A stretch of 64,000 nt of DNA, taken from an uncultured Parvularculaceae bacterium (GTDB lineage: Bacteria > Pseudomonadota > Alphaproteobacteria > Caulobacterales > Parvularculaceae). Shown in pieces: positions 42,193 to 58,969 of this stretch. Positions within the stretch are counted from its first letter, which is position 1, and each line of letters starts with the position of its first letter. A program made the translations under genes and the position numbers. A model generated the notes under the pieces. The model saw nothing but the letters and a program-made list of their open reading frames with translations. It did no database searches and was not told the DNA's origin. The stretch covers positions 1-64,000 of the forward strand of contig CAJXLJ010000006.1 in assembly GCA_913055785.1 (NCBI GenBank), written 5' to 3'.

Positions 42193-42525
42193 GGTACGGC
42201 GCTGAATGATGCGCCCGCACGTCACCGTCTACATGATCGACGACCTACAGAGGCCACTCGTTCGAACGCAACAGACCGCTTCCTGAAATTCTGCGACTGG
42301 CGTCTTCGGCCTATTTGGCGAACCACCGAACTGCTGTCAGAGACTCTCGGACAATTACGACCGGCTGCCGGCAAGAGCGCCGTCTCTCATAGGCCGCAGA
42401 GAGACGAAAACTTACGCAAGCGTCTGAAAAATGGGCGCGCTTTTGAAGGCTACAGCGAACTGGCGTTTCGACCGGATTTGGGTAGCGGCGGAAGCGATCC
42501 GGACCGAACCGGTCTCGGGCCATTA

Positions 42526-42674
42526 TCCCTGTTTTCGGGGAATTTACAGGGAAATTTCACAAAGAAATGCGGATACTGCAGTTTTGAAGAGCATATCCGC
42601 GCCTGCTTTCAACGCTATAGCTAATAATTCCCTAAACGACCTAACAGGGAAATATTTCTACGTATCAGGGAATT
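42526..42674. repeat. Cluster of CAGGGAA-type short repeats
   Basis: Within 150 bp there are about six copies of a CAGGGAAWT-like word on both strands (near 42526, 42537, 42547, 42627, 42645 and 42666). Similar arrays often follow recombinase or transposase genes in Alphaproteobacteria. Supports a mobile-element scar. Confidence 0.5.
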
Positions 42675-43116
42675 CAAACTCGGAGCAAGTAATATTAAAT
42701 GCGGATGAGGTTTTGATAGGGACAGCCCGTTCTATTCAGGTCATAGGCGGTTATTAGCATCGGTCGTATCAAGGAATTGATATATCGCGCACCAAAGATG
42801 ATTTCTGATCCTGTTTCTGTAAGGAGCGGTGTGCGCAATCATACGCCGGCACCGATCCGGCGCGCCGTCGCCATATTTATAGTGCATTTTCGCGGCCCAT
42901 TTGCCGGCCAGCGCATTAATACGTCGCCTTTTTTTCGAGCCGCTTGTCTGCCGGAAAAGCAGTAAGAAGCGAGGTAAGGCTTGAAAAAACGGAATAATGC
43001 TGTGCAGCGCGCATTTTTTGCTCCGAGGCGCCGCTGCCAGTCATGACACAGCTCCGTTTAAATATGGACATTTGCTATCTCGTTCATGCAGATAACTGCA
43101 GACTACTTCCAGGGCG

Positions 43117-43521
43117 TTAATCGCTTTTGCCGCTTCGAATAGTTTGTTCAAACATCGAGTCATAACTGCTCAATGAGCCCTTAATACCTACCATCCGCTT
43201 CAAATCGCAATACAGGGAAAATGGAAAAAGGTCATCAAAATAAACATATCCATACGGGGATGGGTCAAACGATTCCATACGCCATACATAGATCTTTTCA
43301 AAAAGACCGTTAATCGACTGGATCTCGCGCGTGGCTAATTTCTTCGTAACTTTTTCCCTGCGGGTATTTATTTTTTCCCAATCTTCGCCCTCAGAAGCGC
43401 GTTGTGACGCCTGAACAAGAATCAAATAATCTATAAACAACTTCGAAGGTTGAAATGCCGAGCCTGTGTTTGAAGCTGAACGCTTTGACATGCGCATCTG
43501 TATTTTTTTCTTAGTTTTCAT
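43117..43521 (-). CDS. Hypothetical protein
   Basis: 134 aa, no family recognised. ATG 43521 (MKTKKKIQMRMSKRS) is preceded by GAGGGG; the frame is open further upstream but without another good start. Basic N-terminus, then a mostly helical body with SINGLFEKIYVWRMESFDPSPYGYVYFDDLFPFSLYCDL. No signal peptide or TM segment. It lies 116 bp downstream of the membrane-XRE gene on the same strand. Lower GC than the catabolic genes, fitting recent acquisition. Confidence 0.6.
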   Translation of the reverse strand: MKTKKKIQMRMSKRSASNTGSAFQPSKLFIDYLILVQASQRASEGEDWEKINTRREKVTKKLATREIQSINGLFEKIYVWRMESFDPSPYGYVYFDDLFPFSLYCDLKRMVGIKGSLSSYDSMFEQTIRSGKSD

Positions 43522-43637
43522 CGCCCCTCGCTGAAGCAACATCGCGCCGAGAGTTTGAGCTCGGTTTTCATCAGATAATAAAAGGCTCACATTCCGGCAG
43601 AGCCACATGCGACCTACGCAAGCTGCGCCTGTGATTC

Positions 43638-44417
43638 TTATATTTTGAAAGTTTTCGCTTCCGGCGCCGCTTCCAACCCTTCGGAGAAATAGTCCAAGCT
43701 GACACTGAAAAACTTCGCCAACACCCATAGTTGGGAAGCGCCGATTCGATTAGTTCCGCTTTCGAATTTGTTGATTTGCGCTTGCGTCAATCCGAGATGC
43801 TCTGCCAGTTCGGCCTGGCTGAGTCCTGATTTCCCCCGAAGATCTTTAAGCCTCTGGCCTATATGCTCATCGATCAGCCGGATTTGATCACTGCGCTTTT
43901 TGGGCAATCCCGCCTCGCTCGCACTAATTCGAGTCCTTCGAAACAAATCATCTTTAAGATATAACAATTTCATGCGCAATAAGCCCTTGGCTTCATTCAT
44001 ACTTTTGGGCGTAAAGCCTATAATGCAGACAGCGATCGCCAGGATCATCAGTATATTGAGCGCAAGACTATGGGCAGCGCTTGTTCCATAATTTTCGTTA
44101 AAAGCGCCGGCCAGATTAACGCTTGCCATGGCAAGCTGAATTAGAGCCAGCGCCCCCGCCCAGCGGTTACGCGAAAGCCAGGATGTATCCCTGTAAATAT
44201 TTAGAAAACAAAACGCGAGAACGGCATCGATCGCGACGTAAATTAATGTTAAGTCGTGGATGTTTGGAAACAAGCGGCCGAAAAAAATGAAAATGATATT
44301 CGATATGATGATCGAACCAAGCAACATCGCGGCGCCGAATATTTTCTTCTGGCTTCCCCAGAGCACGGCAAGCACAGCGACACCGAACGCCAATCCCGTA
44401 TAGAGAAAAAACAGCAT
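43638..44417 (-). CDS. Five-TM membrane protein with C-terminal XRE helix-turn-helix
   Basis: 259 aa. Five hydrophobic helices (about 3-20, 28-46, 53-72, 86-105, 116-136) are followed by a basic linker and a complete XRE/Cro domain at about 188-243 (RLKDLRGKSGLSQAELAEHLGLTQAQINKFESGTNRIGASQLWVLAKFF, recognition helix TQAQINKFESG). The order is unusual: most XRE proteins carry HTH first and are soluble. It could be a membrane-tethered regulator sensing something in the envelope. The reading frame is continuous. It follows the 130-aa gene by 21 bp. No known family recognised. Confidence 0.85.
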   Translation of the reverse strand: MLFFLYTGLAFGVAVLAVLWGSQKKIFGAAMLLGSIIISNIIFIFFGRLFPNIHDLTLIYVAIDAVLAFCFLNIYRDTSWLSRNRWAGALALIQLAMASVNLAGAFNENYGTSAAHSLALNILMILAIAVCIIGFTPKSMNEAKGLLRMKLLYLKDDLFRRTRISASEAGLPKKRSDQIRLIDEHIGQRLKDLRGKSGLSQAELAEHLGLTQAQINKFESGTNRIGASQLWVLAKFFSVSLDYFSEGLEAAPEAKTFKI

Positions 44418-44438
44418 AGCGCCTAATCAAGGAACGGC

Positions 44439-44831
44439 TTATTGGCTTGGAAGCAGGTCAGGATCTTTCTCTCCTTCTTTTCCCTTTTCTTCTTTGGGAA
44501 TACCGCCAGTCATAACTACGATCGCGTCGGATTTGGCTTTAGCGATGCCATGGGCGATTTTATGACCGTCAGAAAGCGCCGCAGGAAGGTTCAGCGCATA
44601 TCCCATGATCTCTGATACCCTGCTGTGTAATTTCCTTACGCGAGGGTGCAATATAGAACTTTCGGTCTTCAGGATAAAAGACGCAAAGCCGGCTGTGGCT
44701 TTGGCGCATTTCTCAAGCGCAGTCATGCAGGCGCTTTCAGCATCAAGCAAAGCTTGTTGTTCATCCCGTACATCGATTTCTCTTTGAGAGTTCGATGGTT
44801 GCCGGAGTGCGGCGATATTTGATGACGACAT
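44439..44831 (-). CDS. Hypothetical protein, probable operon partner of the membrane-XRE gene
   Basis: 130 aa, no family recognised. Mainly helical (about 20-100), with ALLDAESACMTALEKCAKATAGFASFILKTESSILHPRVRKLHSRVSEIMGYALNLPAALSDGHKIAHG, then a charged tail (KEEKGKEGEKDPDLL). No signal peptide. GGAG precedes ATG 44831. First gene of the unit with 43638-44417. Its small helical design would suit a protein partner, but nothing identifies one. Confidence 0.6.
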   Translation of the reverse strand: MSSSNIAALRQPSNSQREIDVRDEQQALLDAESACMTALEKCAKATAGFASFILKTESSILHPRVRKLHSRVSEIMGYALNLPAALSDGHKIAHGIAKAKSDAIVVMTGGIPKEEKGKEGEKDPDLLPSQ

Positions 44832-45023
44832 TTGAAAGCTCCGTGTTTTACAGCTTTATGGCGACTGAGCCGCCCTCTTTTCCCCTGACAATAAGGATCA
44901 GTTTCTGCATCAACGCAACAAAAAAATCGCAATACGATTAAAATACATCTTTATAGGGAAGATAAACAAATGAACAATTATAAGTTGTGTAATGTTTGAC
45001 CCGGCTATACAGAACGCTCTATT

Positions 45024-45050
45024 CGGGCCTTTTGGCGCAGATGCACCCAA
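45024..45050 (+). repeat. Left terminal inverted repeat of the IS1595-type element
   Basis: Begins CGGGCCTTT, then GGCGCAGATGCACCCAA after one variable base; the reverse complement of 47803-47829 matches at 26 of 27 positions. Confidence 0.85.
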
Positions 45051-45078
45051 CTAAGCGAGATTCAAAATGCTTAGGATG

Positions 45079-46095
45079 TCACAAGCGAAAGGGTTCTTCG
45101 CTGTCTTTGCGCTTATCTTCATACTTCAATCTCCGCTCCTTATAGAACGGGTCCAACAGGGCTTGGATTTGCCACTCTTTAAGAGCGCCGTTGCCCGCAA
45201 TAGTCCGCCTCATTCTGTCGAACGGCCCGCATGGTATGAAGTGCGTGTAATAAGTGAATCGGATACCCCGCCATGTATGGAAAATATCTTGCCATAGCAC
45301 AGCGCCAGTAAAGAAAAGATATTGGCAATTTGGGACCTTTTTTTGAATTTCCTCCCGATCAAAACCAAACCAAAAGGCCTTGTCGATGTTGCCTGGCCCT
45401 ATGATCGAGTTCCATTCAGTAGGGCGCGGAACGTAATGAGAATAAAGCACATCTCCAAATTGGGTGCTGCCAAATATATTTCCCGCAGTTCGCAAACTGA
45501 ATGCCGCGCTAGGCCCCGTATTTCGCAAAACCAGCGCAATTTTTTCGTCATTTCTACCCCATATCCCGATGTCTGCGCCCGAAACTATCAGGAAGGCAGC
45601 ATGTCCGGCTTGTCCGATCTCCCGTTGATCGTTCGCAGTTCTTTCGGCAATCTCGATTTGTTTCTTTCCAACCTGTTGTGTCGTTTCAACAGCGGCCCAT
45701 GCGGCCCGGTTAGCTTGCTGAGTAAGCCAGAGGGTCCAAATGAGCGCCAAAACGCCAATCATAGCGAGAACACTACTGACAAGAGTCCAGTGCGCCATTC
45801 GGGTTTGGGCGAGAAGGTCAAGCTCCGCCGGGCTATCGCAGTAAGCGTTCTGTTTGCTCTCGGCTATATCGGCGGATTTTTTGGCCTCAGGGGCGAGACC
45901 AAAGGTAACCTGACAGTCTGCCTCACAGGTTACGCTGCCTTCATAATTTTTATGCTCTGCGCTTTCATCATAATTATGGAGCCCGTTTAAAATATCAGTG
46001 CATTTCGGCTGATTAAAAAATGCGACGGCCACTACAAGTGCAGCCAATATCCCTAATCCAGCGAGACCGTATGGCAACCAATCGCGCTTAGGCAT
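45079..46095 (-). CDS. Hypothetical membrane protein (IS passenger)
   Basis: 338 aa, no function recognised. One N-terminal TM helix (LAGLGILAALVVAVAFF), a Cys-containing extracytoplasmic stretch (CTDIL ... CEADCQVTF ... YCDS), a second TM helix near residue 110-130 (LVSSVLAMIGVLALIWTLWL), a short coiled-coil-like linker (EIAERTANDQREIGQ) and a beta-rich C-terminal cytoplasmic domain. Its start overlaps the end of the DUF6471-like gene by 43 bp, so the two are coupled. It lies wholly inside the element. Confidence 0.8.
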   Translation of the reverse strand: MPKRDWLPYGLAGLGILAALVVAVAFFNQPKCTDILNGLHNYDESAEHKNYEGSVTCEADCQVTFGLAPEAKKSADIAESKQNAYCDSPAELDLLAQTRMAHWTLVSSVLAMIGVLALIWTLWLTQQANRAAWAAVETTQQVGKKQIEIAERTANDQREIGQAGHAAFLIVSGADIGIWGRNDEKIALVLRNTGPSAAFSLRTAGNIFGSTQFGDVLYSHYVPRPTEWNSIIGPGNIDKAFWFGFDREEIQKKVPNCQYLFFTGAVLWQDIFHTWRGIRFTYYTHFIPCGPFDRMRRTIAGNGALKEWQIQALLDPFYKERRLKYEDKRKDSEEPFRL

Positions 46096-46277
46096 TGTAG
46101 AAGAAATGCGGCGCTGAATTTGCCCCTCCCGACCTTGTTTCTTATGGCCGGTTCTTCCTCGGCCACCCCAATGTCGGCAAGTTTACTTTGCAAGTCTTTG
46201 TAGGAAAGGCCCTGTTTTGTCATTTCAACTCTAAGAAGAGTTTTTGCCTTTTGTTCCCAAGGGGTTAGCGTAGTCAT
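46053..46277 (-). CDS. DUF6471-like small HTH protein (IS passenger)
   Basis: 74 aa, beginning MTTLTPWEQKAKTLLRVEM; the body TKQGLSYKDLQSKLADIGVAEEEPAIRNKVGRGKFSAAFLLQCLSAIGC looks like a DUF6471 XRE-like helix-turn-helix. ATG 46277 gives the family length; the frame is open to 46337. Divergent from the transposase across a dyad-rich 93-bp gap, so it may regulate transposase expression (inference). Confidence 0.8.
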   Translation of the reverse strand: MTTLTPWEQKAKTLLRVEMTKQGLSYKDLQSKLADIGVAEEEPAIRNKVGRGKFSAAFLLQCLSAIGCHTVSLD

Positions 46278-46295
46278 GTAACATTCCTGCGGTAA

Positions 46296-46379
46296 TTGCA
46301 TCATTAATGTTGCATATACCCCTTGAACGTTGCACATTCAAGCAGCACATACGTTGTATAAGCAACGGTAATGATGCAA
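46296..46379. promoter_or_regulatory. Dyad-rich divergent promoter of the IS element
   Basis: A perfect 11-bp inverted repeat TTGCATCATTA (46296-46306) / TAATGATGCAA (46369-46379), the right arm overlapping the transposase ATG. Inside lies CGTTG (46352-46356) / CAACG (46363-46367), plus repeated GTTGCA words. Suits autoregulation by the DUF6471-like protein. Confidence 0.5.
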
Positions 46380-47339
46380 ATGGCCCAACACTTCCTTCTC
46401 TCCGCCGCCTCTAGGGCCCTGAAATTAAAGGACATTTATCAGGCTGGAGAGAACAGGGCTTACGAGACCTTCTGCAAACTGCGCTGGCCTGAAACTGACG
46501 GCGAAGCGGTCTGCCCTCATTGCGGTTGCTGTGACGCCTATTTCCTGAAAAGCCGCCGCCGCTACAAATGCGCAGCCTGCCGCCAGCAGTTCTCGGTTAC
46601 GTCAGGAACAATCCTGCATTCGCGCAAACTGTCGTTTACGGACCTTCTCGCCGCCATGTGCATTCTGGCGAAAGCAGCGAAAGGCGTTTCCTCGCTCCAG
46701 CTTGCGCGCGAACTTGGCATTCATGCGAAGTCGGCATGGGTTCTTGCGCATAAACTCCGCGAAGCGATTGGCGCCGAAGCCCGCGACATCAAACTTGACG
46801 ATGAAGTCGCGATTGACGGTTGCTACGTCGGCGGATCGATCCCTGACCGGAACCTTAAAGCGAACCGTGTTGACCGTCGCTTGAAGCGCTATCAGACCGG
46901 CAAACGCCGTGTCGTCATCGCGATTCGCGAAGGCAAAGAACGCACAATCACTACCGTTGCAAAGAACGAAGCCGAAGGCGTTGAGTTCGCCAAGGCGCGC
47001 CTGCTGCCGGGAACGATTGTCAACGCCGATGAGGCGTCGCAATGGGACATGCTCAACGCGTTGTTTCCGACCGAGCGCATCAATCACAGCGAAGCCTATT
47101 CGCTTAACGGCGTTCACACGAACTTTGTTGAAAGCTATTTCTCGCGCCTTCGCCGCATGGTCGGCGGTCAGCATCACTGGGTTAGCCCGCAGCACCTTCA
47201 TCAATACGCGGCTCACGCTGCTTGGTTAGAAGATCACCGCCGCTCAACAAACGGCGCGCTCGCTGGCCGTATACTCCGCAACGCTCTCGCTTCGCCGGTG
47301 AGCCGCACCTTCTCAGGGCGCTGGCAGAAAGCCGCCTAA
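46371..47339 (+). CDS. IS1595 family transposase (ISXO2-like)
   Basis: 322 aa. N-terminal zinc ribbon (CPHCGCCDAYF...YKCAACRQQFSVTSGTILHSRK), helical DNA-binding part (GVSSLQLARELGIHAKSAWVLAHKLREAI), then the DDE-type core: Asp in DEVAIDGCYVGG, Asp in TIVNADEASQWDML and the late Asn/Glu in HTNFVESYFSRLRRMVGG. It appears full length and intact. Its stop region overlaps by 4 bp the end of the convergent winged-helix gene. Confidence 0.95.
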   Translation: MMQMAQHFLLSAASRALKLKDIYQAGENRAYETFCKLRWPETDGEAVCPHCGCCDAYFLKSRRRYKCAACRQQFSVTSGTILHSRKLSFTDLLAAMCILAKAAKGVSSLQLARELGIHAKSAWVLAHKLREAIGAEARDIKLDDEVAIDGCYVGGSIPDRNLKANRVDRRLKRYQTGKRRVVIAIREGKERTITTVAKNEAEGVEFAKARLLPGTIVNADEASQWDMLNALFPTERINHSEAYSLNGVHTNFVESYFSRLRRMVGGQHHWVSPQHLHQYAAHAAWLEDHRRSTNGALAGRILRNALASPVSRTFSGRWQKAA

Positions 47340-47760
47340 ACCGAAACGACGCGCCAGACACCCACGGCGCTGTCGCCGACCCGCTCGATAACGCCGCGTA
47401 ACTTTTGATGATCCAGCGCTCTGGAGATTTTCAGGCGCAGTTCGCGGTTAAACCGCTTGTCATCATTCTCCCAGCCTTTCTGATCGCAAACCATTTCGAC
47501 CAGATCGCGGAGGCTGACGCCCTCTGGATGCTTTCTGAGAAGCGTCAGGACAATGCGGGGTAGTTCGCCAGTATAAAACAGCCCTGCCGCCCTCGGTTTC
47601 TTGGGGCAAACGCGCCGTCAGGATAATAGCCCAAGTGAAAGAGCGTCGCGTCTAAATGGGCAATGGTCGTTTGCAGATCGCAGACGATCCGCTCGTGGTC
47701 GCGCAGGCGAGACAGGACGTTCTTGCGTTCATTGATGAGGGCTTGCGCGACAGGTTCCAT
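47336..47760 (-). pseudogene. Winged-helix-like IS passenger gene broken by a 1-nt frameshift
   Basis: From ATG 47760 the frame gives 71 aa (MEPVAQALINERKNVLSRLRDHERIV..., a coiled-coil start) and soon stops. Shifting frame at the G4 tract 47603-47606 (C4 on the coding strand) continues PKKPRAAGLFYTGELPRIVL, then VSLRDLVEMVCDQKGW, NRELRLKISRALDHQKLRGV and WRVVSV, ending at 47336. One missing C explains it. The joined protein would be about 141 aa with a winged-helix-like C-terminus. Could be a true mutation, a programmed shift or a sequencing error. Confidence 0.7.
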
Positions 47761-47802
47761 GCGGCGAAACTAGGTCGCGCCGGTCTATCGGTCAGTCAGT
47801 AT

Positions 47803-47829
47803 TTGGGTGCATCTGCGCCTAAAGGCCCG
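47803..47829 (-). repeat. Right terminal inverted repeat of the IS1595-type element
   Basis: Reverse complement begins CGGGCCTTT and matches 45024-45050 with one mismatch in 27 bp. Confidence 0.85.
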
Positions 47830-47841
47830 TAAAAATTTGGA

Positions 47842-47931
47842 TGGCGGACAGGGTGGGATTCGAACCCACGAGACGGTTGCCCGCCTACACGCGTTCCAGG
47901 CGTGCGCCTTCGACCACTCGGCCACCTGTCC
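47842..47931 (-). tRNA. tRNA-Ser (anticodon GGA)
   Basis: 90 nt including an encoded CCA. The acceptor GGACAGG pairs with CCTGTCC; the D-arm GCCGAGTGGTCGAAGGCG, anticodon stem/loop CGCCTGGAACGCG with anticodon GGA, a long variable arm typical of serine tRNA, and GGTTCGAATCC in the T-loop are all clear. Its 3' end faces the accessory half, a classic island boundary. Confidence 0.97.
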
Positions 47932-48252
47932 TTGACCTGCGCAAAAGCGCACGCCGGTCTGTTCATTCGCCGCCTTCGCGGCGGGACGCCTTCGACCACT
48001 CGCCCGTCCTCATCTATAGCGCGCTCGCTGTGTATGGCGTTCGCCTCGCCGCGGAGAAGCGGCGTTTCTTCGTTCCGGGCCGGGCCCTCCCCGAAGAGCC
48101 GCGGACTATAGCGGCGCGCCCCTCCCGCGCAAGGGCGCAAGCGGGTGAAAACGCCGCAGATACCCGGCTTCGCCCGAAGAATTGCGGCCCGGCCCCAGCC
48201 GGGTTATCTTGCCCCTAGAGCGTATCGCGTTAACGATGTTGAGGGGGCCGGC
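47932..48252. other. Gap upstream of tRNA-Ser holding a tRNA fragment
   Basis: No gene seen. It contains the tRNA promoter region and, at 47987-48010, a degenerate copy of the tRNA-Ser 5' half, plus short GC-rich hairpins. Frames here are shadows. Confidence 0.6.
47987..48010 (-). repeat. Partial duplicate of the tRNA-Ser 5' region
   Basis: Positions 47987-48002 repeat exactly the 16 bp of 47905-47920 (minus strand CGAGTGGTCGAAGGCG, the D-arm), and the adjoining minus-strand AGGACGGG resembles the tRNA 5' end GGACAGG. Spacing of 82 bp is about one tRNA length. Probably a decayed tandem tRNA copy or recombination trace. Confidence 0.65.
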
Positions 48253-48525
48253 ATGGCGGTGTTTCGATTTCTTGCTTGGGTATTGGTGGCGCTGGCGGTG
48301 GCGCTCCTTGGGGCGGACGGCATTGCGTCGCTTGAGTCCGGCAAAACGGTGATGCGCTCGACGGCGGACATTCTCAATCTCATGGGCATCGACAGCGCGG
48401 CGATCGTCGAGAACTCCCCCGGCGGCGTCTCCCAGGCGCTCGGCACGATCATGGGCCTCCCGCTCTGGGGCGTTCTGGGCGTGATCGGCGTCGTGATGAC
48501 CCTGATCTTCCGGCCGATGGAATAG
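48253..48525 (+). CDS. Small membrane protein, unknown function
   Basis: 90 aa from ATG 48253 (MAVFRFLAWVLVALAVALLGADG). Two TM helices (about 4-22 and 68-87, LWGVLGVIGVVMTLIF) flank a short polar loop (SLESGKTVMRSTADILNLMGIDSAAIVENSPGGVSQALGTI). GAGGGGG precedes the start. No family recognised; convergent with terC. Confidence 0.75.
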   Translation: MAVFRFLAWVLVALAVALLGADGIASLESGKTVMRSTADILNLMGIDSAAIVENSPGGVSQALGTIMGLPLWGVLGVIGVVMTLIFRPME

Positions 48526-48588
48526 ACGCCGCCCTACCGGACGGCGTCTCCTTAACCGAACTTCCGAAATATCGCACAAGGCGCGACG

Positions 48589-49383
48589 TCAGCCGTGCGC
48601 CCCGAGTTCTTTCGCCCGCTGCGCCTCGAGCTTGTTGCGGTAGCGGGTCTGCACGACCGACACAACCACCATGATGAAAATCACGAAATAGAAGCTCGCC
48701 TTCGACATCGCTTCAACCTTGAAATTGAAGAGCTCCATATGGGCCAGGTGCCCGCCTTCGGTGATCAGAAGCACGCCGACGACGAAAAGAATAAAGAGGC
48801 CGATCACTTCGAACATGCGGTTCTTTTTCAAAAACGCCGACACCTGATCGGCGAGCGCGATCATCATCACGCCGCTGATGATAATTGCGGTCGCGATCAC
48901 CCAGATCACATGCGTCAGCGCAATCGCCGACAGGAGCGAGTCGAAGGAGAAAATGAGATTCATGAAGACGATAAGCAGGATAACGCTGGTCACGGATCGG
49001 GGACGCCGGTCGCCAACCGCTTCAATGTGATCGACCGCAAGAAGATGCATGATCTCCTTGATCGCCGTATACATGATGAAGCCGCCGCCGGCGATCGACA
49101 CAAGCGAATGAAAAGTGAACGTACCTTCGAAGAAGCCATCGAGGATGATGGCGAACAACGGCTCGGTCAGGCTGTTGATCAACCCCAGCACGATGAACAT
49201 CAAGACAAGGCGGAACAGGATCGCGAGCCCGATGCCCATGCGCCGCACGAAACGCTGGCGGGCTTCCGGCACGCGGCTCGACTCAATCGAGATATAGAGC
49301 AGGTTATCGAAGCCCAGCACCGCCTGCAGCATGATCAGCATCAGCAGCGTGAACCAGTTTTCAAGCGCCAGTAAGCTTTCCAT
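48589..49383 (-). CDS. TerC family integral membrane protein
   Basis: 264 aa with seven to eight TM helices. TerC hallmarks: GFDNLLYISIES near the N-terminus and LNLIFSFDSLLSAIAL (aspartates inside helices). TerC/Alx/YkoY proteins act in metal (Mn2+) export at the inner membrane or in tellurite response; which applies is open. ATG 49383 follows AGGAG; upstream residues discarded. Confidence 0.92.
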   Translation of the reverse strand: MESLLALENWFTLLMLIMLQAVLGFDNLLYISIESSRVPEARQRFVRRMGIGLAILFRLVLMFIVLGLINSLTEPLFAIILDGFFEGTFTFHSLVSIAGGGFIMYTAIKEIMHLLAVDHIEAVGDRRPRSVTSVILLIVFMNLIFSFDSLLSAIALTHVIWVIATAIIISGVMMIALADQVSAFLKKNRMFEVIGLFILFVVGVLLITEGGHLAHMELFNFKVEAMSKASFYFVIFIMVVVSVVQTRYRNKLEAQRAKELGAHG

Positions 49384-49649
49384 CGTCTCGCTCTCCTGTT
49401 CGGTTCGAAGAGGGCAATGGGCCATGTTCGTTCGCCCCGCGCAAGCCTTGCGAGAAGGCCAAGCGTGATCTCGCTGTTAACACTTGGCAGGTTGTCCACG
49501 CCGAAACGCAGCCTGGAAGCGACGAACTGAAATCAGGGAAACGTCATTCGCCGAAGCGTTTGCCGCGCGCGCCGAACTGCGGCGCCAACACCTTCTCTTC
49601 GCCCCAAAGCGCGCCTACCTGCAGTCTCGTAACGAGAGAGGAGAATAAA

Positions 49650-49739
49650 ATGACCCGGTTAATCACCATGCTGACAGCTGTCTCGATCGTCATGGTCGCA
49701 CTGTCTCCGGTGGCGTACACCTATTCCCAACTTGTCTGA
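49650..49739 (+). CDS. Candidate 29-residue membrane peptide
   Basis: Short frame MTRLITMLTAVSIVMVALSP followed by VAYTYSQLV, a single hydrophobic helix or signal-like peptide. A strong GAGAGGAGA lies 7 bp before the ATG. It stands alone between terC and kdsB, upstream of which is a 200-bp leader. Could be a small membrane protein; no known family. Confidence 0.45.
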   Translation: MTRLITMLTAVSIVMVALSPVAYTYSQLV

Positions 49740-49823
49740 TCGTCAGATGCGATTGACTTTCCATCGCGCCGGATCCGGCAGACGCCCCCGAAAAGAACGC
49801 AGCGGCGTTCAGTATCGCTGCGT

Positions 49824-50597
49824 TCACCGCCGCCTTTCAGACATGCGAGCGGCGAAGCGCGCATAATCCTCCGGCGTATCGATCCCCGGCGGGGCTTCGC
49901 TGATTACGCCCACGGCTATATCGCCACCCATTTCCAGAATTCTGAGTTGTTCGAGCCGTTCGGCCCGTTCGAGCGCGCCGATTGGCGCTGCAGCGAACCG
50001 CTGAAGATCGGTTTTTGCGTAGGCGTAAACGCCGAGATGCAGAAAATAAGTCTCCGGGGAAACGATCCCTCCCCGCGCGTCTCGCGGCCAGGGGCAGATC
50101 GTACGCGTAAAAAACCGCGCGCGATAAACCTCCGGCGCGAGCTGTTCCCCGAGCAGCGCCTTGACGGCGCTCGGATCGTCCGGCGAACCGGCGCCGGCGC
50201 GCGCCTCAACGGCAAAAGGACAGGCGAGCGTCGCCGCAAAACACGGATAGCCGGATTTGATCTCAATCAGCCGGTCGATGGCCTGCGGGTCGATCTCCGG
50301 CTCGTCACCCTGAAGATTGACGATGATATCCGCCTCCAGCCCCGCCGCCGCTTCTGCAACCCGCGCGCCGCCGGTCTCGTGTTCGCTGCGGGTCATCATC
50401 GCTTCGCCGCCAAACCCCTTAACCGCCTTCAAAATGCGCTCATCATCAGTGGCGACGACGACGCGGCTGGCGCGGACGCATTTCATCGCCTGTTCATAAA
50501 CATGCTGGATGAGCGGCTTGCCAGTTTCGGCGAGCAACGGCTTGCCGGGAAGGCGCGTCGACGCGTACCGCGCCGGAATGACGATTGCGGCGTTCAT
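49824..50597 (-). CDS. kdsB: 3-deoxy-manno-octulosonate cytidylyltransferase (CMP-KDO synthetase)
   Basis: 257 aa. Nucleotide-binding motif PARYASTRLPGKPL, then VNLQGDEPEI (metal Asp), AIDRLIE and HLGVYAYAKTDL. It activates KDO as CMP-KDO for lipopolysaccharide inner core, so the cell makes LPS. Overlaps the VanZ-like gene by 4 bp, forming a minus-strand operon galE-vanZ-kdsB. Confidence 0.96.
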   Translation of the reverse strand: MNAAIVIPARYASTRLPGKPLLAETGKPLIQHVYEQAMKCVRASRVVVATDDERILKAVKGFGGEAMMTRSEHETGGARVAEAAAGLEADIIVNLQGDEPEIDPQAIDRLIEIKSGYPCFAATLACPFAVEARAGAGSPDDPSAVKALLGEQLAPEVYRARFFTRTICPWPRDARGGIVSPETYFLHLGVYAYAKTDLQRFAAAPIGALERAERLEQLRILEMGGDIAVGVISEAPPGIDTPEDYARFAARMSERRR

Positions 50598-51004
50598 CGC
50601 GCGCGCACTTTACGAACAAGCTGCGCCAGAATGTAGGCGCCGATGAAACCTGAAAGCGCGCCGAGCGCATTCGCCAGCCCATCGGCGAATTCCGGCGTGC
50701 GCACGCCGCCGAGCCCTTGCACGCCTTCCAGGATCGCGCCGTATGCGGCGAGCAGGAGCGGCGTCCAGCGCTTGCGTCCGAAGATGAATGTCTCTGCCCA
50801 GAACGCCGCGGCGCCGAGCGCGCCATAGGCTGCAAAATGCCCGATCTTGTCTGCGAATTGCGCGTCGCCGAAAAGGAGCTTCGCCACATAACGCGCCGCC
50901 GCAAAACCGCTCGTGTCATCGGGATTGGGCGTCAGCGTCAAATAGGTGATGAAAACGAGGAGCGCGGCGAAGAGCAGGCGCATCCACAAAAGGCGCGATG
51001 ACAT
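50594..51004 (-). CDS. VanZ-like membrane protein
   Basis: 136 aa, about four TM helices, with VanZ-family segments LTPNP near the N-terminus and DKIGHFAAYGALGAAAFWAE, YGAILEGVQGL. Function of chromosomal VanZ-like proteins is poorly known. ATG 51004 overlaps the galE stop by one base (TGATG-type junction); the frame open to 51046 is not needed. Confidence 0.88.
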   Translation of the reverse strand: MSSRLLWMRLLFAALLVFITYLTLTPNPDDTSGFAAARYVAKLLFGDAQFADKIGHFAAYGALGAAAFWAETFIFGRKRWTPLLLAAYGAILEGVQGLGGVRTPEFADGLANALGALSGFIGAYILAQLVRKVRAR

Positions 51005-51999
51005 CAGACAGCCGCCTCGGCGCAGGCGGAAAGCCGCCGCTCCCACTCGATCGCCGTTTCGACGATAAAATCGATGTCGTCATAGCGCGGCCGCCAATCG
51101 AGCAACGTGCGGATGGCCGCGTTGTCTGCGATCAACTGCGCGGGATCGCCAGGACGCCGGGTGGCGATCTCATGCGGGAGCGGCGCGCCCGTCACCCTTT
51201 CGAATGCTTCCATCACTTCATAAATCGAGTAGCCGCGCCCGTAGCCGCAATTCAGCGTCGCCGACGAGGCGCCTGCGCGCACCCGCTCCAGCGCCCGCAA
51301 ATGCGCGGAAGCAAGATCGGAGACATGTACATAATCGCGGATCGCCGTACCGTCAGGCGTCGGATAGTCGGCGCCGAAAATCTGGAGCTTTTCCTTGCGG
51401 GTTCCGACCGCGATCTGGGCGGCGACCTTGATGAGATGGGTCGGCTTGCCGATTTCACCGGCGCGGCTTTCCGGATCAGCGCCGGCGACGTTGAAATACC
51501 GCAACGTGACGAAACTCAGCCCGTGGGCTTTCGCGGCGTCCTCAAGGATGCGTTCGCTCATCGCCATGGAGGCGCCGTAAGGGGCGATCGACCGGATCGG
51601 CGCCTGTTCGGAGATCGGCACCCGCTCGGGCGTGCCGTAAACCGCCGCCGTTGACGAAAAGATGAAGCGCTTCACCCCGGCGTCGACGCAGGCCCGGATC
51701 AGGGTCAGCGTATTCGCAGTGTTATTCTCATAGTAGTCGAGCGGATGTTTGATCGACTCCGGTATCAGGATCGACCCGGCGAAATGAATGACGTCCGTGA
51801 CATCATGATCGTTGAAGATCCGCGCCAGCGCCGCTGCGTCGCCGGCATCGGCCTCCACAAACGCCGCGCCGTCAGGAACCAGCCGCCGGTCGCCGGTCGA
51901 CAGGTTATCGAGCGCCACCGCGCTTTCCCCTGCGTCCAGCAGGGCGAGCAGCATATGCGAGCCGATATAGCCGGCGCCCCCGGTGACAAGCACGCTCAT
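51004..51999 (-). CDS. galE: UDP-glucose 4-epimerase-like protein with altered active site
   Basis: 331-aa extended SDR, by overall similarity GalE, which interconverts UDP-glucose and UDP-galactose. NAD motif GGAGYIGSH (7-15), SSTAAVYG with the catalytic Ser and Tyr141 are present. However, the YxxxK motif reads YGASM: the catalytic Lys is Met145 (codon at 51567-51565, ATG instead of AAG). This Lys is essential for normal epimerase turnover. The rest of the frame is intact. It could be a nearly inactive or altered-function enzyme, a private mutation, or a base error. Confidence 0.88.
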   Translation of the reverse strand: MSVLVTGGAGYIGSHMLLALLDAGESAVALDNLSTGDRRLVPDGAAFVEADAGDAAALARIFNDHDVTDVIHFAGSILIPESIKHPLDYYENNTANTLTLIRACVDAGVKRFIFSSTAAVYGTPERVPISEQAPIRSIAPYGASMAMSERILEDAAKAHGLSFVTLRYFNVAGADPESRAGEIGKPTHLIKVAAQIAVGTRKEKLQIFGADYPTPDGTAIRDYVHVSDLASAHLRALERVRAGASSATLNCGYGRGYSIYEVMEAFERVTGAPLPHEIATRRPGDPAQLIADNAAIRTLLDWRPRYDDIDFIVETAIEWERRLSACAEAAV

Positions 52000-52141
52000 C
52001 TTGGGTCTCCGCTCCCTTCCCTGATCCGGTTATCGCAGTTCGGTCACAGTTTTGTAATAGCGAAGTTAACGCCTCGCCGATACTCTGACCGCTCAGACAG
52101 TGGTTAAAACCGGCAAACGCCGCATATATTAAAGTCATCAC

Positions 52142-52879
52142 ATGTTGAACCGGATCTTCAGGAAAAACGGCTCAGGCGCCAGCGCGCCGGAAGGCAAGCG
52201 GCTCTATGCGGTCGGCGACATCCACGGCTGCGCCACCCTGCTTGACGATCTGGTCGAGATCATCGTCGAAGACGCTGAAGGTCTCGAGAACGCCTCGGTC
52301 GTCTTTCTCGGCGACTACATCGACCGCGGTCCGGACAGCAAAGGGGTGATCGACCGGCTGATCGCGTTCGGCAAGGCGCATCCGGCGACCGTCTTCCTCA
52401 AGGGCAATCACGAAGCAATCATGCTCGACTTCCTCCACGACCCGAACGAGATGCTGCACTGGCTGGACTGGGGCGGCGAGGAAACGCTTGAAAGTTACGG
52501 CCTTGAGAACATTCTTGGGCGGGACGGAGAAGACCTCGCCGAAGAGCTGGCGCAAAAAATGCCCGGCGCGCACCATAAATTCCTGGACTCCCTCGCGCTG
52601 ACGCATATCGAGGGCGATTATTTATTCGTTCATGCAGGCGTAAGGCCCGGCGTCGCGCTCGAAGACCAGCAGGAAGACGATCTCTTATGGATTCGCGGCC
52701 GCTTTCATAAGGCGAAAGCCGATGAGCGCCCGCCCTATACGGTGGTCCATGGTCATCAGCCGCTGAAATCCGCGCTGGACGCCGGCTGGCGCATAGACGT
52801 CGACACCGGCGCCTGCTGGTCGGGCCGGCTTACGGCCGTTGTGCTCGAAGGCGACAAGCGCCGGTTTGTCTCAACCTGA
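52142..52879 (+). CDS. Metallophosphoesterase, serine/threonine protein phosphatase type
   Basis: 245 aa. PPP-family motifs GDIHGC, FLGDYIDRGPDS and FLKGNHEAIM bind two metals; later His residues sit in VHAGVRPG and VVHGHQP. Resembles bacterial PrpA/PrpE and ApaH-like phosphatases, acting on phosphoproteins or dinucleotide tetraphosphates. Divergent from galE; ends 6 bp before the convergent methyltransferase. Confidence 0.93.
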   Translation: MLNRIFRKNGSGASAPEGKRLYAVGDIHGCATLLDDLVEIIVEDAEGLENASVVFLGDYIDRGPDSKGVIDRLIAFGKAHPATVFLKGNHEAIMLDFLHDPNEMLHWLDWGGEETLESYGLENILGRDGEDLAEELAQKMPGAHHKFLDSLALTHIEGDYLFVHAGVRPGVALEDQQEDDLLWIRGRFHKAKADERPPYTVVHGHQPLKSALDAGWRIDVDTGACWSGRLTAVVLEGDKRRFVST

Positions 52880-52885
52880 GAGGAG

Positions 52886-54235
52886 TCAGGCGGATTTCGC
52901 CGCCTCATTGTCCTTGTTTTCCGCAACAAGGCGCGGTCCGCCCGCCGCCGCAAGAATGGAGCGCAGGGTTTCAACGCCCGCGGCGCCGTCGCCGCCTGCG
53001 ATCGATTTGCCGTATTCTGTGGCGTAGTTCGCCGCGCTCACCACATGAGGCATGGGCGTGACGAATACCATTTTCGCCCCGAGCATGATCGTTTCGCGCC
53101 AGCGCTCCAGCGTCTCGCGCTTGTAACGGGCCTGGGCGATCAGATAGTCCGGCTCTGCGGCGCGGCTGTCGGTTTCGGAGATAATCGGCGGACCGTTCTT
53201 GCCGAGACGATCCTGTTCCCGGGCTTCGGCCGTATCGACCACTGCGGTGATGATTTTTTTCGCGCCCCCAGCCCAGCCGATCAGCGCTTCGGTTTGCGCG
53301 TCGGCGCCGAGAATATGCGCCGTCTCGCCGCGCTTTTCGATGTCTTTCAAAAGCGCGACAAACGACTCCTGTACGCTTTCAATGCGGCGCTCAAACGACT
53401 GGTAAGGCTGGATGGCGCGCATGGCGAGGGCGTTTTCTTCATCCCACAGCCGTGCGAGACGCTCGAACCACGGATCGAAGTCGAACTCGCTGTTTTCCTT
53501 GTGCGTAACGAACAACCGGATCGACCCGCCCTCTTTCGACGTAAGCGCGCCCTTGACGATTTTCATACCCGCGTCACGCACCATCCACTCGAGAACGCCG
53601 AGAGAGTAAACCGCCGCAACGCCGGCCTGCAGCACGTCAACCGCATTGCGCGCCAGCACGGACGGCGAATAAAGGGTTTCAAGTACGAAGATGCCGTCAT
53701 CCGTAAGCCGGGCTTTGGCGGCCGCCAGAAACGCCTTCGGATCGTCAATCTGTTCGAGTACGGAAACCGCCGTGATGATGTCGAATTTCTTCTCGCCGAA
53801 GGCGCTGTCGAGTTCCGCCGACGGAAACGCCGCTTTCGCCGTCCACGCCCATGAACCGATCTCTTCCACCAGTTCCGAAGGGTCGACGCCGTAACGATCA
53901 ACCCAGCGCGGGTAATAGGAAAGAAGCGCGCCGTCATTGCAGCCGATATCGAGCGCCGCGCAGTCGCGTCCGGAAATCAGCTCAAGGGCTTCGGTGGCCG
54001 CCGCGCGCAAATGCTCCCGATTGGAACTGTGACGGCCTGAAGGCGCAATATCGGCATGCGCGCCGTGCGCGCCCGCTTGCAGGAGGCCGCATGCGCGGGC
54101 ATGGCGCGACGGATCGCACAACACATAATCATCTGTATAATGACTGGATTTGCGCGCACGCCCGCCGATCTTCATCGAAAACGCCGGCGTCAGGGTTTTC
54201 GATCCGCAGGCCCTGCATTCGGTGATCTTTTTCAC
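52886..54235 (-). CDS. SAM-dependent methyltransferase, NovU/TylCIII-like
   Basis: 449 aa in the three-part layout of sugar C-methyltransferases: an N-terminal zinc-finger-like domain (CRACGS...CDPS...ACGLLQ), a central SAM-binding domain (ALDIGCNDGALLSYYPRW) and a C-terminal Rossmann-like domain (GAGKK-region ILGADAQTEALIGWAG). Such enzymes methylate nucleotide-bound deoxysugars. The sugar is unknown; proximity to galE and kdsB hints at envelope polysaccharide. Confidence 0.85.
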   Translation of the reverse strand: MKKITECRACGSKTLTPAFSMKIGGRARKSSHYTDDYVLCDPSRHARACGLLQAGAHGAHADIAPSGRHSSNREHLRAAATEALELISGRDCAALDIGCNDGALLSYYPRWVDRYGVDPSELVEEIGSWAWTAKAAFPSAELDSAFGEKKFDIITAVSVLEQIDDPKAFLAAAKARLTDDGIFVLETLYSPSVLARNAVDVLQAGVAAVYSLGVLEWMVRDAGMKIVKGALTSKEGGSIRLFVTHKENSEFDFDPWFERLARLWDEENALAMRAIQPYQSFERRIESVQESFVALLKDIEKRGETAHILGADAQTEALIGWAGGAKKIITAVVDTAEAREQDRLGKNGPPIISETDSRAAEPDYLIAQARYKRETLERWRETIMLGAKMVFVTPMPHVVSAANYATEYGKSIAGGDGAAGVETLRSILAAAGGPRLVAENKDNEAAKSA

Positions 54236-54378
54236 AGGCGTTCATCCTTTTTCGCGCGCTCAGCTATTGCGGCGAGCGTTGCAGGACAGCGTAAAAACAG
54301 CGTTAAGGCATTGATATCGCTTAATTTTGTATAGACGATACTAATCATGGTTAAGAAAGCGTAGCTTTCCCGAACCCC

Positions 54379-54404
54379 AGGCGCCGCGCGAAACGGCGCC
54401 TTTT
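54379..54404 (+). terminator. Weak hairpin AGGCGCCG / CGGCGCCT with short T run
   Basis: Stem 54379-54386 / 54394-54401 followed by TTT on the plus strand, where no gene ends nearby; it may act only as an RNA structure. Called with low confidence. Confidence 0.3.
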
Positions 54405-54438
54405 GGCAACCACTCTGAACGAAGGGTGAAGCTTTCGG

Positions 54439-55596
54439 TTACGCCGCGAGCCGGGCGATCAACTTGCGCAGGAATTCCGTACACTCGCGAATCTGGTCGA
54501 CAGCGATGAACTCATTCGGCTGGTGCGCCTGGTCTATGGAGCCCGGCCCGCAAATGACCGTCGAAAAGCCTGCTTCCTGAAACTGGCCGGCTTCTGCGGC
54601 GTAGGCCACAACGTCGGTGCTGTTATGGCCGGTGATCGCCTTGGCGAGGTCTGCCGCCGGATTGTCTTGATGGGGGGAAAGCGACGGCGCATTGGTCATC
54701 TGCTCGATGGTGACGCTGCAGCCGCCGGCCTTCGACCGCATCTCCGCTTCGACGCCCCGGGCGAAGTCCGTGAACTCCCCGATGATGTCTTCGCGGGAAT
54801 CGCCTGGCACCACGCGCAGATCCCAGTCGAACACCGCTTCGCCGGCCATGATGTTGAGCTGCGTGCCGCCATGAACGACATTGACGGTCATGGTCGAGTA
54901 TGGCGGATCGAAAGGCGATTCAGGATCAGCCTCTCTCGCCCGCGCCGCCCGCATGTCGGCGATTTTCGAAATCATTTTCGCCGCCGCCTCGACCGCCGAA
55001 ACGCCGCGGTCGGTCTGGCTCGAATGGGTCGTGAAGCCCTTCACCGTCACCCGGAAGGAGGCGATCCCCTTGTGGCCGTCGATCACCCGCATCATCGTCG
55101 GCTCGCCGACAATGACGGCGGAGGGCGCGGGAACCTTGCCGGCGATTTCCGCAATCATGCTGGGCGCGCCGAGGCAACCGATCTCCTCATCATAGGAAAG
55201 CGCAAAGATAAGCGGCCGCTTGAGGCCGGCGGCGAGCATTTCCGGAACCAGCGACAGACCGATCGCGGAAAAGCTTTTCATGTCCGAAACGCCGCGCCCG
55301 TAGAGCTTTCCTTCCTGCTCCTCCACAGTCCACGGATCGGTCTTCCAGTCCTGGCCTTCCACCGGCACGACATCCGTATGGCCGGAAAGCACGACGCCGC
55401 CTTCGGTCCTGGGACCGACAATCGCATAGAGATTGGACTTCGTGCCGTCCTCATTTTCCACCCGGAAGGTCTCAACGCCGAGGCCATGCAGATAGGTTTC
55501 TACATCCTCGATCAGCGCCAGATTGGAACGCGAAGAGGTCGTATCAAAAGCGACGAGGCGGGAAATCCAGTCGAGCTGGCTTTGTATGTCTGTCAT
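54439..55596 (-). CDS. argE: Acetylornithine deacetylase (M20 peptidase family)
   Basis: 385 aa. Metal-site motifs SGHTDVVPV, YGRGVSDMKSF and ALSYDEEIGCLG (catalytic Glu) are present, and the dimerisation domain lies in the middle. ArgE removes the acetyl group of N-acetylornithine in arginine synthesis; related M20 deacylases cannot be fully excluded. ATG 55596 fits the family start; upstream basic residues discarded. Confidence 0.92.
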   Translation of the reverse strand: MTDIQSQLDWISRLVAFDTTSSRSNLALIEDVETYLHGLGVETFRVENEDGTKSNLYAIVGPRTEGGVVLSGHTDVVPVEGQDWKTDPWTVEEQEGKLYGRGVSDMKSFSAIGLSLVPEMLAAGLKRPLIFALSYDEEIGCLGAPSMIAEIAGKVPAPSAVIVGEPTMMRVIDGHKGIASFRVTVKGFTTHSSQTDRGVSAVEAAAKMISKIADMRAARAREADPESPFDPPYSTMTVNVVHGGTQLNIMAGEAVFDWDLRVVPGDSREDIIGEFTDFARGVEAEMRSKAGGCSVTIEQMTNAPSLSPHQDNPAADLAKAITGHNSTDVVAYAAEAGQFQEAGFSTVICGPGSIDQAHQPNEFIAVDQIRECTEFLRKLIARLAA

Positions 55597-55690
55597 GAGC
55601 GTTAGCTTGGCCGCCCGCGCGCGGCGGCGCAATATCTTTCGTGAGCCTTATGCCGGCGTCGCCTTTAGCCCGGGAAGACAGGCGCTCCGA

Positions 55691-56332
55691 CTATTTCGTC
55701 AGGCGCTGCGAGATCGCCGCGCTGACGGCGCGGCTCGCCTCATGACCGCTGCGAGCAAGATGCTCGGCGACGCTGCGCGCATCGGCTTCAGGAAAATCCT
55801 GATGAAGCTTCGATATCGCCTCGATGCGGCTGACCTCGATTTCAAAGGCGCGCAGCCGGGGACGGAGACGCTCTACATAGTCATCCGTAACGCCTTCGAT
55901 CGACCAGGCGGGCTTTTCTGAAAGCCCCTGAAACCGCGCTTCCGCAGCTGCGGCGAGATCGTTGATCAGCGTGTCGAAGAAGGCGCGGTCCTCACGAACG
56001 CGAACCCGTCCCCAGACATGAACGGCCGTGTAGTCCCAGGTGCCGGCATGGTCCTGCGCCGTGCGCCAGTTGGGCGACACATAGCTGTCCGGCCCCGAAA
56101 AGGCGACCAATGCCTCTGCGTCATCCAACGCGTTGCATTGCGGATTAGCGGCGTTCATATGCGCGCGGAGACGGCGGACCTCGCCGGCTTCTACATCGAC
56201 GGCGAAAGGAAGTCGCGTTACGCGCAGGCCGCCTTCACCGCCCGTGATGAAATGCGCGAATGGACAGGCGCGTAAAAGCCCCTCGATCTTCGCCCGATCG
56301 TGCTCGTGATGCGGCCGCGGCGGATACGCCAT
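55691..56332 (-). CDS. FMN-binding negative transcriptional regulator family protein (PaiB-like)
   Basis: 213 aa. PaiB markers: MAYPPRPHHEHDRAKIEGLL, PFAHFIT and the VHVWGRVRVREDRAFFDTLINDLAAAAEA region typical of the FMN split-barrel. Named for Bacillus PaiB; a direct regulatory role is not established outside it. ATG 56332 follows a short upstream frame. It ends 13 bp after the homocysteine methyltransferase. Confidence 0.88.
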   Translation of the reverse strand: MAYPPRPHHEHDRAKIEGLLRACPFAHFITGGEGGLRVTRLPFAVDVEAGEVRRLRAHMNAANPQCNALDDAEALVAFSGPDSYVSPNWRTAQDHAGTWDYTAVHVWGRVRVREDRAFFDTLINDLAAAAEARFQGLSEKPAWSIEGVTDDYVERLRPRLRAFEIEVSRIEAISKLHQDFPEADARSVAEHLARSGHEASRAVSAAISQRLTK

Positions 56333-56345
56333 CTTTGATCCTTGT

Positions 56346-57419
56346 TCAGCCCGCCAGTTTGAACGGCTCAAGTCCGGAAAGCTTCATTTCGGTCTCGAGT
56401 TCAGGGATTTCCCGCGGCTGGACGCCCTTCACCGCCTCGGCGAAGGCGCGAATGTGGTCCGGCGTCGTGCCGCAACAACCGCCGACAATGTTCAAGAGCC
56501 CGCTTTCCGCCCACTCTTTGAGGTGTTTGGTCATGGACGACGGGGTTTCATCGTAATCACCGAAAGCATTAGGCAGCCCCGCATTCGGATAGGCGGAAAC
56601 ATAGGCGTCCGCAACGCGCGACAGCTCGGCCACATAAGGGCGCATGAGGTCCGGCCCCAGAGCGCAGTTGACGCCGACCGAGAGCGGCCGCGCGTGACGC
56701 ACCGCGTTCCAGAACGCTTCCGGCGTCTGGCCGGAAAGCGTGCGGCCCGACTGGTCGGTGATCGTCACCGAAAGCATAATTGGAACTTCAAAGCCAAGCG
56801 TGTCGAACAGCGCCTTGACGGCGAAGATCGCCGCCTTGGCGTTCAGTGTATCGAAGATCGTCTCGATCAGGATCGCATCCGCGCCGCCCTCAAGGAGGCC
56901 TCTCGCCGCCTCGCCATAGGAGTCGGCGAGCGTGTCGAAATCCGTATTGCGCTTGCCGGGGTCGTTGACGTCCGGGGAGATTGAGGCGGTCCGGTTGGTC
57001 GGCCCGATGGCGCCGGCGACAAAACGGGTGCGCCCGTCTTTCGCGGCTGCGTCCGCCGCCTCCCGGGCGATCCGCGCGCCCTCGCGGTTCAGTTCGAAAG
57101 CGAGGTCTTCCATGCCGTAATCGGCCTGCGCGATGGTGGTCGAGGAAAAGGTGTTGGTCTCGATGATGTCGGCGCCGGCGGCGAGATAGGCGTCATGCAT
57201 GTCGCGCACGATCTCGGGGCGAGACAGGATCAGGATGTCGTTATTGCCTTTGATGTCGCTCGCCCAGCCCGCAAAGCGGTCGCCGCGATAACCCGCCTCA
57301 TCGAGTTCGAAGCGCTGGATAAACGTGCCGGCGGCGCCGTCGAGCACGAGAATTCGTTTCTTGAGGGTTTCTTTCAGCGCGTCGATGCGCGCTTGTCTTC
57401 CGGGATATGAATCGCTCAT
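56346..57419 (-). CDS. Stand-alone homocysteine S-methyltransferase (MetH N-terminal module)
   Basis: 357 aa, corresponding only to the homocysteine-binding barrel of MetH. Zinc ligands are visible: Cys in GVNCALGP and the CC of [12 protein letters not shown], with the start [24 protein letters not shown] typical of cobalamin-dependent MetH. The pterin, cobalamin and activation modules are absent, so a partner gene must exist outside the window. A large inverted repeat 12-41 bp upstream suggests control by a methionine-cycle repressor. Confidence 0.92.
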
Positions 57420-57430
57420 GGCAGCCTCCG

Positions 57431-57460
57431 AAATCATATAAAGATTTCTTTATATGATTT
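57431..57460. promoter_or_regulatory. Perfect 14+14 bp inverted repeat upstream of the methyltransferase
   Basis: Arms AAATCATATAAAGA (57431-57444) and TCTTTATATGATTT (57447-57460), 2-bp spacer, 12 bp before the gene. The ATATAAAGA / TCTTTATAT core is like sites of ArsR-type (SahR-like) regulators of methionine genes in Proteobacteria. A third half-site TTTATAAAGA is at 57471-57480. Confidence 0.8.
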
Positions 57461-57504
57461 GCAAGCGCCGTTTATAAAGAGCCTTAGATAATTGAAATAT
57501 AATA

Positions 57505-57538
57505 TAAAATGGATGTCCCGGCGCGAGGCCGGGACATC
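57505..57538 (-). terminator. Rho-independent terminator of the H1-like gene
   Basis: Stem GATGTCCCGGC (57512-57522) / GCCGGGACATC (57528-57538) with a 5-base loop; on the minus strand it is followed by ATTTTATATTATATTT. Confidence 0.85.
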
Positions 57539-57560
57539 AACCATTTTTCGGTTTGACCGG

Positions 57561-57824: not shown

Positions 57825-57916
57825 TTTCTGAGCTTCCCCTGATACGCTGACCAATTGCCAGCATTTCGCCCTTATGCTGACGTGCGTTAACGAACAATAA
57901 AAAAATGCAATTCGCC

Positions 57917-58867: not shown

Positions 58868-58969
58868 CATTTCTAAATATCCAAGCTTGTCATTTTTTTA
58901 AGAACAAATAGCTTCTCCGCGTCGGCGTGATCCCTCACGCCCCCGGTTTCAACAAGACGGAGAAATGAG

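Follow-up and report, generated by a model that had tools for sequence, protein, structure and literature searches.

The 64,000-nucleotide window analyzed here (positions 1 to 64,000 of contig CAJXLJ010000006.1, assembly GCA_913055785.1, from an uncultured Parvularculaceae bacterium) carries three short genes, here called A, B, and C, that are read from the minus strand beside an insertion element. An initial annotation, made from the sequence letters alone, had proposed that the three form one system around a membrane-tethered XRE regulator. Here, we report that B is, as far as genome comparisons indicate, a rare, lineage-limited protein that combines a predicted five-segment membrane domain with a C-terminal XRE domain, that A and B form a real, rare, lineage-limited cassette, and that C looks like an unrelated neighbor. 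The genes and the region upstream of them are as follows:

44439-44831, minus strand: gene A, 130 amino acids, without a hydrophobic segment and predicted to be helical
43638-44417, minus strand: gene B, 259 amino acids, a five-segment membrane domain followed by a C-terminal XRE domain
43117-43521, minus strand: gene C, 134 amino acids from an ATG at 43521, a member of its own small family
44832-45023, minus strand: leader of A, up to an IS1595-type element; presumed promoter/operator region of A-B

The three genes were found with the sizes first given to them and with the 21-bp gap between A and B; B and C are separated by 116 bp. The frame of C stays open farther upstream, to 203 amino acids and overlapping B, so its start is uncertain. 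The AT-rich setting was borne out, with a G+C content of 46% across 43001-45000 compared to 51 to 58% in 2-kb windows of 1-43000 and 56 to 64% in 2-kb windows of 46001-64000. Codon scores are positive in the true frame alone (0.036 for A, 0.107 for B, and 0.049 for C); because a doubtful 108-amino-acid open reading frame (ORF) also scores 0.016, the codon score by itself is little proof, and the best argument that A, B, and C are real genes comes from the homologues of each. All three score below 16 likely-gene ORFs that we picked from the window's list (0.19 to 0.41). Neither A nor C matched a family at E ≤ 0.05 in Pfam, NCBIfam, PHROGs, or PADLOC, as had been claimed for all three genes, whereas B does match known families, with every match at that level in the four libraries lying on or around its helix-turn-helix (HTH).

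Architecture and conservation of protein B

Membrane segments were called by Kyte-Doolittle hydropathy (19-residue mean, threshold of 1.4), and the protein divides as follows:

44361-44417, minus strand: hydrophobic segment 1, residues 1-19, by hydropathy
44286-44342, minus strand: hydrophobic segment 2, residues 26-44, by hydropathy
44196-44252, minus strand: hydrophobic segment 3, residues 56-74, with Asp64 invariant in 4/4 homologues
44100-44156, minus strand: hydrophobic segment 4, residues 88-106, by hydropathy
44010-44066, minus strand: hydrophobic segment 5, residues 118-136, with Asn121 invariant in 4/4 homologues
43932-44006, minus strand: juxtamembrane helix, residues 138-162
43872-43931, minus strand: variable linker, residues 163-182; the predicted local distance difference test (pLDDT) of the AlphaFold2 model is <50 for 163-175
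43686-43850, minus strand: XRE helix-turn-helix, residues 190-244

The five segments reach mean hydropathies of 1.62 to 2.63 over 19 residues, and the stretches between them are 6 to 13 residues long, without a periplasmic domain. Lysine and arginine together number 2, 1, 3, and 0 in the successive loops and 21 in the tail, a distribution consistent with an N-out/C-in topology. The XRE domain is complete (HTH_3, E value of 1.4e-13, profile positions 1-55 of 55, and 51.1 bits against a cut-off of 23) and is closest to Cro/CI-type regulators both by sequence and by structure. The five membrane segments and complete C-terminal XRE domain of the initial annotation are thus confirmed by hydropathy and profile matching.

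A search with the membrane part across 62 genomes of the family returned four matches: the window's own genome (G000) and the genomes G037, G006, and G048, with identities of 49, 40, and 23%, respectively; full-length alignments of these three proteins with that of the window give 42, 36, and 25% identity. All four proteins carry five hydropathy segments and a C-terminal XRE domain in a single frame, and in G048 a sixth peak inside the XRE domain barely exceeds the threshold (1.42 versus 1.4). Because this architecture is shared in one frame throughout, B is not an artificial fusion of two genes, an outcome that had been named as fatal to the first proposal, and the membrane-tethered XRE regulator stands as a prediction. 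A profile built from the four proteins found the same four, as built in, and none further among 398 genomes of the order, and found the window's own genome only (1 of 385) in a sample of the class. A named genome collection returned two of the same four proteins again, one of them in Parvularculaceae bacterium PL25a_bin.97.

We compared sequence identity along B, with the juxtamembrane bounds (138-162) picked after viewing the alignment. When each of the other three proteins is paired with the window's B, identity is 46, 37, and 19% in the membrane part, 64, 52, and 40% in the juxtamembrane helix, 25, 10, and 12% in the linker, and 37, 37, and 38% in the XRE domain. For the remaining three pairs, juxtamembrane and XRE identities are 44 versus 51, 40 versus 37, and 24 versus 46%. 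The juxtamembrane helix is thereby the best conserved of the four stretches in four of six pairs, two of them narrowly, and in all three pairs that include the window's B its identity is no lower than that of the XRE domain. At 46 and 37% identity, the membrane side in the two closer pairs is not an anchor that drifts without constraint.

An AlphaFold2 model of B from three sequences places helices where they were predicted, breaks at 163-175, and contains the XRE fold, which aligns with ClgR (3f52_A) over 76 residues (Z score of 11.8 and root mean square deviation of 2.3). Among the best 50 of 416 matches in the PDB, 49 superimpose on the XRE end; the remaining one, a designed helical binder, superimposes on residues 1-145 (Z score of 11.6), under the tool's telling level for helical bundles. 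Wherever matches among the best 50 of 416 in the PDB and the best 50 of 981 in BFVD are named, they are XRE or repressor proteins, and no match among them speaks for the membrane part. Such an absence does not amount to a new fold.

Gene A, a linked gene and possible partner of B

Gene A supplies the linkage that was claimed for this locus. In G048, a distant relative, a homologue of A lies directly upstream of B in the same strand, with a 1-bp gap to the ATG taken for B (the open frame of that B begins earlier, at a TTG within A), and the order is kept although the two B proteins share just 25% identity. A was also found by a search of its own, which matched G048 at an E value of 6.4e-5 and G040 at 6.8e-14. 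Plain BLASTP reported no alignment between the window's A and that of G048, and the homology is supported by the own-search match, the shared alignment positions, and the place of the gene together; profile scores of the G040 and G048 proteins are high by construction, since both are in the model. In the sample of 385 genomes of the class, A matched its own genome alone. Neither A nor its G048 homologue has a hydrophobic segment at the threshold of 1.4, and a single-sequence AlphaFold2 model of A has a low pLDDT of 66.7. Because A directly precedes B in G048 as well as in the window, we regard the two as a cassette.

Weaker matches to A in G055, G045, G001, G049, and G012 and on G048:C6 (E values of 0.004 to 0.1) were dropped as chance; of these, the G001 locus was inspected. 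The G048 pair (L010 601-2371) lies just upstream of groES (Cpn10), in the same strand.

Adjacency holds at two of four B loci and two of three accepted A loci. G037 and G006 have B without A beside it, and G040, whose genome is 86% complete, has A without a match to B; there, the match overruns the end of a 118-amino-acid frame (two TAA codons counted), and the neighbors, named by eye from their translations, are a GST-like gene and a gene for an MlaF-like ATPase. It follows that A is not indispensable to every B. The initial annotation had held that homologues always occurring singly would point to ordinary regulators, a description that fits two of the four B loci and not the other two. These same loci bear on a different account, in which B alone is the regulator and A is one target gene or a passenger on a common transcript in two lineages. 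The two solitary B genes and the A of G040, between its GST-like and MlaF-like neighbors, agree with it; the abutting A of G048, found independently and in the same strand and order beside so divergent a B, argues against it, and we consider this account unlikely, though deserving of serious attention.

The order of the two genes also recalls toxin-antitoxin pairs. In HigBA, a small toxin gene lies upstream and an XRE antitoxin lies downstream, and the gene order, gene size, and XRE domain of A-B agree with that arrangement; the HTH of B matches antitoxin models as well, all under their cut-offs. However, A matches no toxin family in the four libraries at E ≤ 0.05, although it could have a new toxin fold, the antitoxin would need to be a five-helix membrane protein, and A occurs without B in G040, so that a HigBA-like pair seems very improbable.

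Gene C and the setting of the locus

C (P0007) matched 8 of the 62 family genomes at E ≤ 0.1, three of them clearly: its own, G020 (44% identity, E value of 2.4e-32), and G039 (E value of 3.9e-6). In G020 and G039, no A or B lies within the 13-kb stretches around the C homologue, and neither gene has a match genome-wide. Conversely, C has no match at E ≤ 1 in G048, G037, G006, G040, G045, or G055, and G048 carries A-B yet gives no C match. We therefore rejected the three-gene module: of the co-occurrence anticipated for the trio, A and B together recur in G048, whereas C is not linked to them. Across the 385 genomes of the class, the C profile matched its own genome only.

Fainter relatives of C occur in other contexts. 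The window's own genome has another C-like gene (L043 1501-1911, E value of 1.5e-6, with one TGA in the matched frame), which sits between genes for an RpoH-like sigma factor and a LuxR-like regulator, named by eye. G042 and G023 encode C-like proteins of 190 amino acids near genes that by eye are integrase-like (L038 8676-11614 and L039 5623-8424); their kinship to C rests on E values of 0.001 to 0.002 and a common K...WR and S...DL pattern. The G042 gene (L038) is beside an oligonucleotide cyclase (1.1e-193) and a two-transmembrane (2TM) effector (3.2e-75) identified by PADLOC. Weak matches were also obtained in G036 (E value of 0.044) and G014 (E value of 0.053).

A 120-amino-acid protein of G037, P0008 (L023 8828-9190), is encoded 35 bp downstream of B in the same strand and is a candidate remote homologue of C, with weak similarity to its profile. 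Its C-profile score of 21.1 exceeds those of 200/200 other ORFs (best of 19.7; many are likely spurious) and 200/200 shuffled sequences (best of 17.5), compared to 55 to 141 for members of the C family when each is left out in turn. BLASTP of C against P0008 gave no match, and the A profile gave a P value of 0.074.

The features on the other side of the A leader are as follows:

45024-47829: IS1595-type element, 2.8 kb, with 30-nt inverted repeats (93%)
47842-47931: tRNA-Ser(GGA), the 3' side of which is a variable hotspot

The element contains an IS1595 transposase gene, a DUF6471 gene, and a 338-amino-acid gene without a family, the latter two possibly being passengers; no target duplication was seen by eye. 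We compared the setting with six places from relatives. In 6/6, synteny extends across the tRNA-Ser and to its right, and the opposite side differs in content, which places A-B-C in a variable hotspot; a TerC-family gene of the right flank is present in 18/28 genomes of the genus. None of the six loci matches A, B, or C at E ≤ 1e-10. In G038 (L060), phage capsid and tyrosine integrase genes occupy the hotspot. In G019, other genes separate the tRNA from a match to the window's TonB-receptor gene ~7.5 kb away, which makes the interval from the TonB receptor to the tRNA the variable part. No second copy of the tRNA-Ser, as an att remnant, was found in the window at ≤3 mismatches. The place of A-B-C is an integration hotspot beside tRNA-Ser(GGA), and together with the IS1595-type element, it bears out the mobile neighborhood originally described.

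Low G+C content, this hotspot, and the prophage there in G038 are what might be expected if the trio were a defence or phage-derived module, as are the weak C-like proteins near integrase genes in G042 and G023, of which the G042 context is, by our reading, like that of a cyclic-oligonucleotide-based antiphage signaling system (CBASS). However, no relatives of B were found in IMG/VR, and none of its membrane part were found in phage or plasmid searches; whole B matches 85 phage records, the best 20 of which begin at residue 134 or later. A and C have no relatives in the phage and plasmid searches. PADLOC matches B on HTH residues only and A and C not at all at E ≤ 1, no effector or enzyme of a described system was found among A, B, and C in that library, and C is not linked to A-B elsewhere. 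Neither the defence-like module nor the phage-derived regulator of the first proposal thus found support, and we regard such a module as extremely improbable.

At 42522-42700, repeated 'CAGGGAAAT'-like motifs surround GGGAATTTACAGGGAAATTT. The latter pattern, with one base free, was found in two IMG/VR contigs, and 42480-42760 has no plasmid match.

Known membrane regulators and a proposed mechanism

Demey et al. 2023 (PMC10269533) define a transmembrane transcription regulator (TTR) as a single protein for which both a DNA-binding domain and a transmembrane region are predicted. B has such a domain and at least one such region, so that it is by prediction a TTR, a known kind of regulator, and by inference would act in a TTR-like manner. 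As described there, the majority of TTRs are single pass; B, in contrast, has five segments and no sensory domain known to Pfam, and the main text of that paper mentions XRE and HTH_3 nowhere. The co-component systems ToxR/ToxS and VtrA/VtrC (Kinch et al. 2022, PMC9214523) likewise have a membrane-tethered DNA-binding protein with a small partner gene adjacent, as A is in the window and G048, though not in G037 and G006. The sensor of these systems is periplasmic, and in VtrA/VtrC the partner has a lipocalin-like domain (PMC9214523), whereas A has no hydrophobic segment, lies upstream of the regulator, and does not answer to a partner in a periplasmic sensor; since A has no membrane anchor, we did not file A-B as VtrA/VtrC type. 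The ToxR-like CadC, in which one transmembrane helix links a periplasmic domain to the HTH domain (PMC9214523), is a membrane-integrated one-component regulator, as is B by prediction, but B, with its five segments, lacks a periplasmic domain.

Other XRE proteins differ in their attachment or its order. The soluble regulators ClgR, C.BclI, SinR, and CapH have the XRE fold in common with B and are not known to have a membrane domain. RodZ has an N-terminal HTH and a membrane anchor of one transmembrane helix; B is reversed, with its XRE domain at the C terminus, and scores below the cut-off for HTH_25 (13.5 versus 24.6 bits). No paper describing an XRE domain behind a five-helix membrane domain appeared among the results listed by literature searches that reached few subscription journals.

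On balance, we favor, as somewhat better than an even prospect, the reading in which B serves as a one-component transcription regulator, polytopic and integrated in the membrane, and A, soluble and encoded with it, is its partner or target. Its five transmembrane helices, joined by short loops and oriented N-out/C-in, would leave the cytoplasm with the juxtamembrane helix, the XRE domain, and the floppy linker that connects them. Because there is no periplasmic domain, the input would come from the membrane or the cytoplasm; most likely, the helix bundle senses a lipid, the state of the membrane, or an intramembrane or cytoplasmic signal. This signal may pass via the juxtamembrane helix and alter the pairing or DNA access of XRE domains, which would repress or activate target promoters, probably including that of their own A-B operon. 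A, helical and soluble, would probably share a transcript with B, and most likely it either acts on B from the cytoplasmic side to modulate it or is itself under the control of B. Membrane insertion, DNA binding, the signal, the DNA targets, autoregulation, and the contact between A and B or role of A are all inferred in this scheme.

Several observations weigh against this reading. B is known from four sequences only, A is missing beside two of them, and A stands without B in G040. The XRE domain outranks the juxtamembrane helix in two of the three pairs without the window's B (51 versus 44 and 46 versus 24%). The membrane part is without an assigned fold, and the best model of B is middling (mean pLDDT of 72.1 and predicted template modeling score of 0.55), with five models that differ and descend to 43.4. 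Finally, no convincing operator emerged: in none of the four B-locus leaders do the upstream palindromes exceed chance expectation, the longest being reached by 0.76 to 0.86 of 200 sequences drawn from the same dinucleotide steps. A candidate in the A leader, AATCG-N5-CGATT at 44925-44939, has a single occurrence in the window (0.27 expected) and is present in 27/100 shuffles. Inverted repeats of at least 12 are absent from the leaders of the window, G037, and G048, and three occur in the GC-rich leader of G006. Promoter-like sites number 2 compared to 3.2 expected, with none on the minus strand, and terminator-like sites number 7 compared to 3.6 expected, with none in the B-C gap.

A bolder proposal, which we advance tentatively and below even chance, is that these proteins make up a lineage-restricted class of polytopic regulators. 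In this class, the C-terminal XRE domain would be controlled by an intramembrane sensor of five helices that has no periplasmic domain and is connected through the well-conserved juxtamembrane helix, with A as a soluble cytoplasmic co-component, the counterpart to periplasmic ToxS or VtrC. How a DNA-binding domain held at the membrane finds and controls its operator is described as poorly understood in PMC10269533. If true, a compact sensor of five helices, combined with a soluble partner and a juxtamembrane helix that is conserved, would offer a small, testable model for direct in-membrane sensing without a periplasmic domain.
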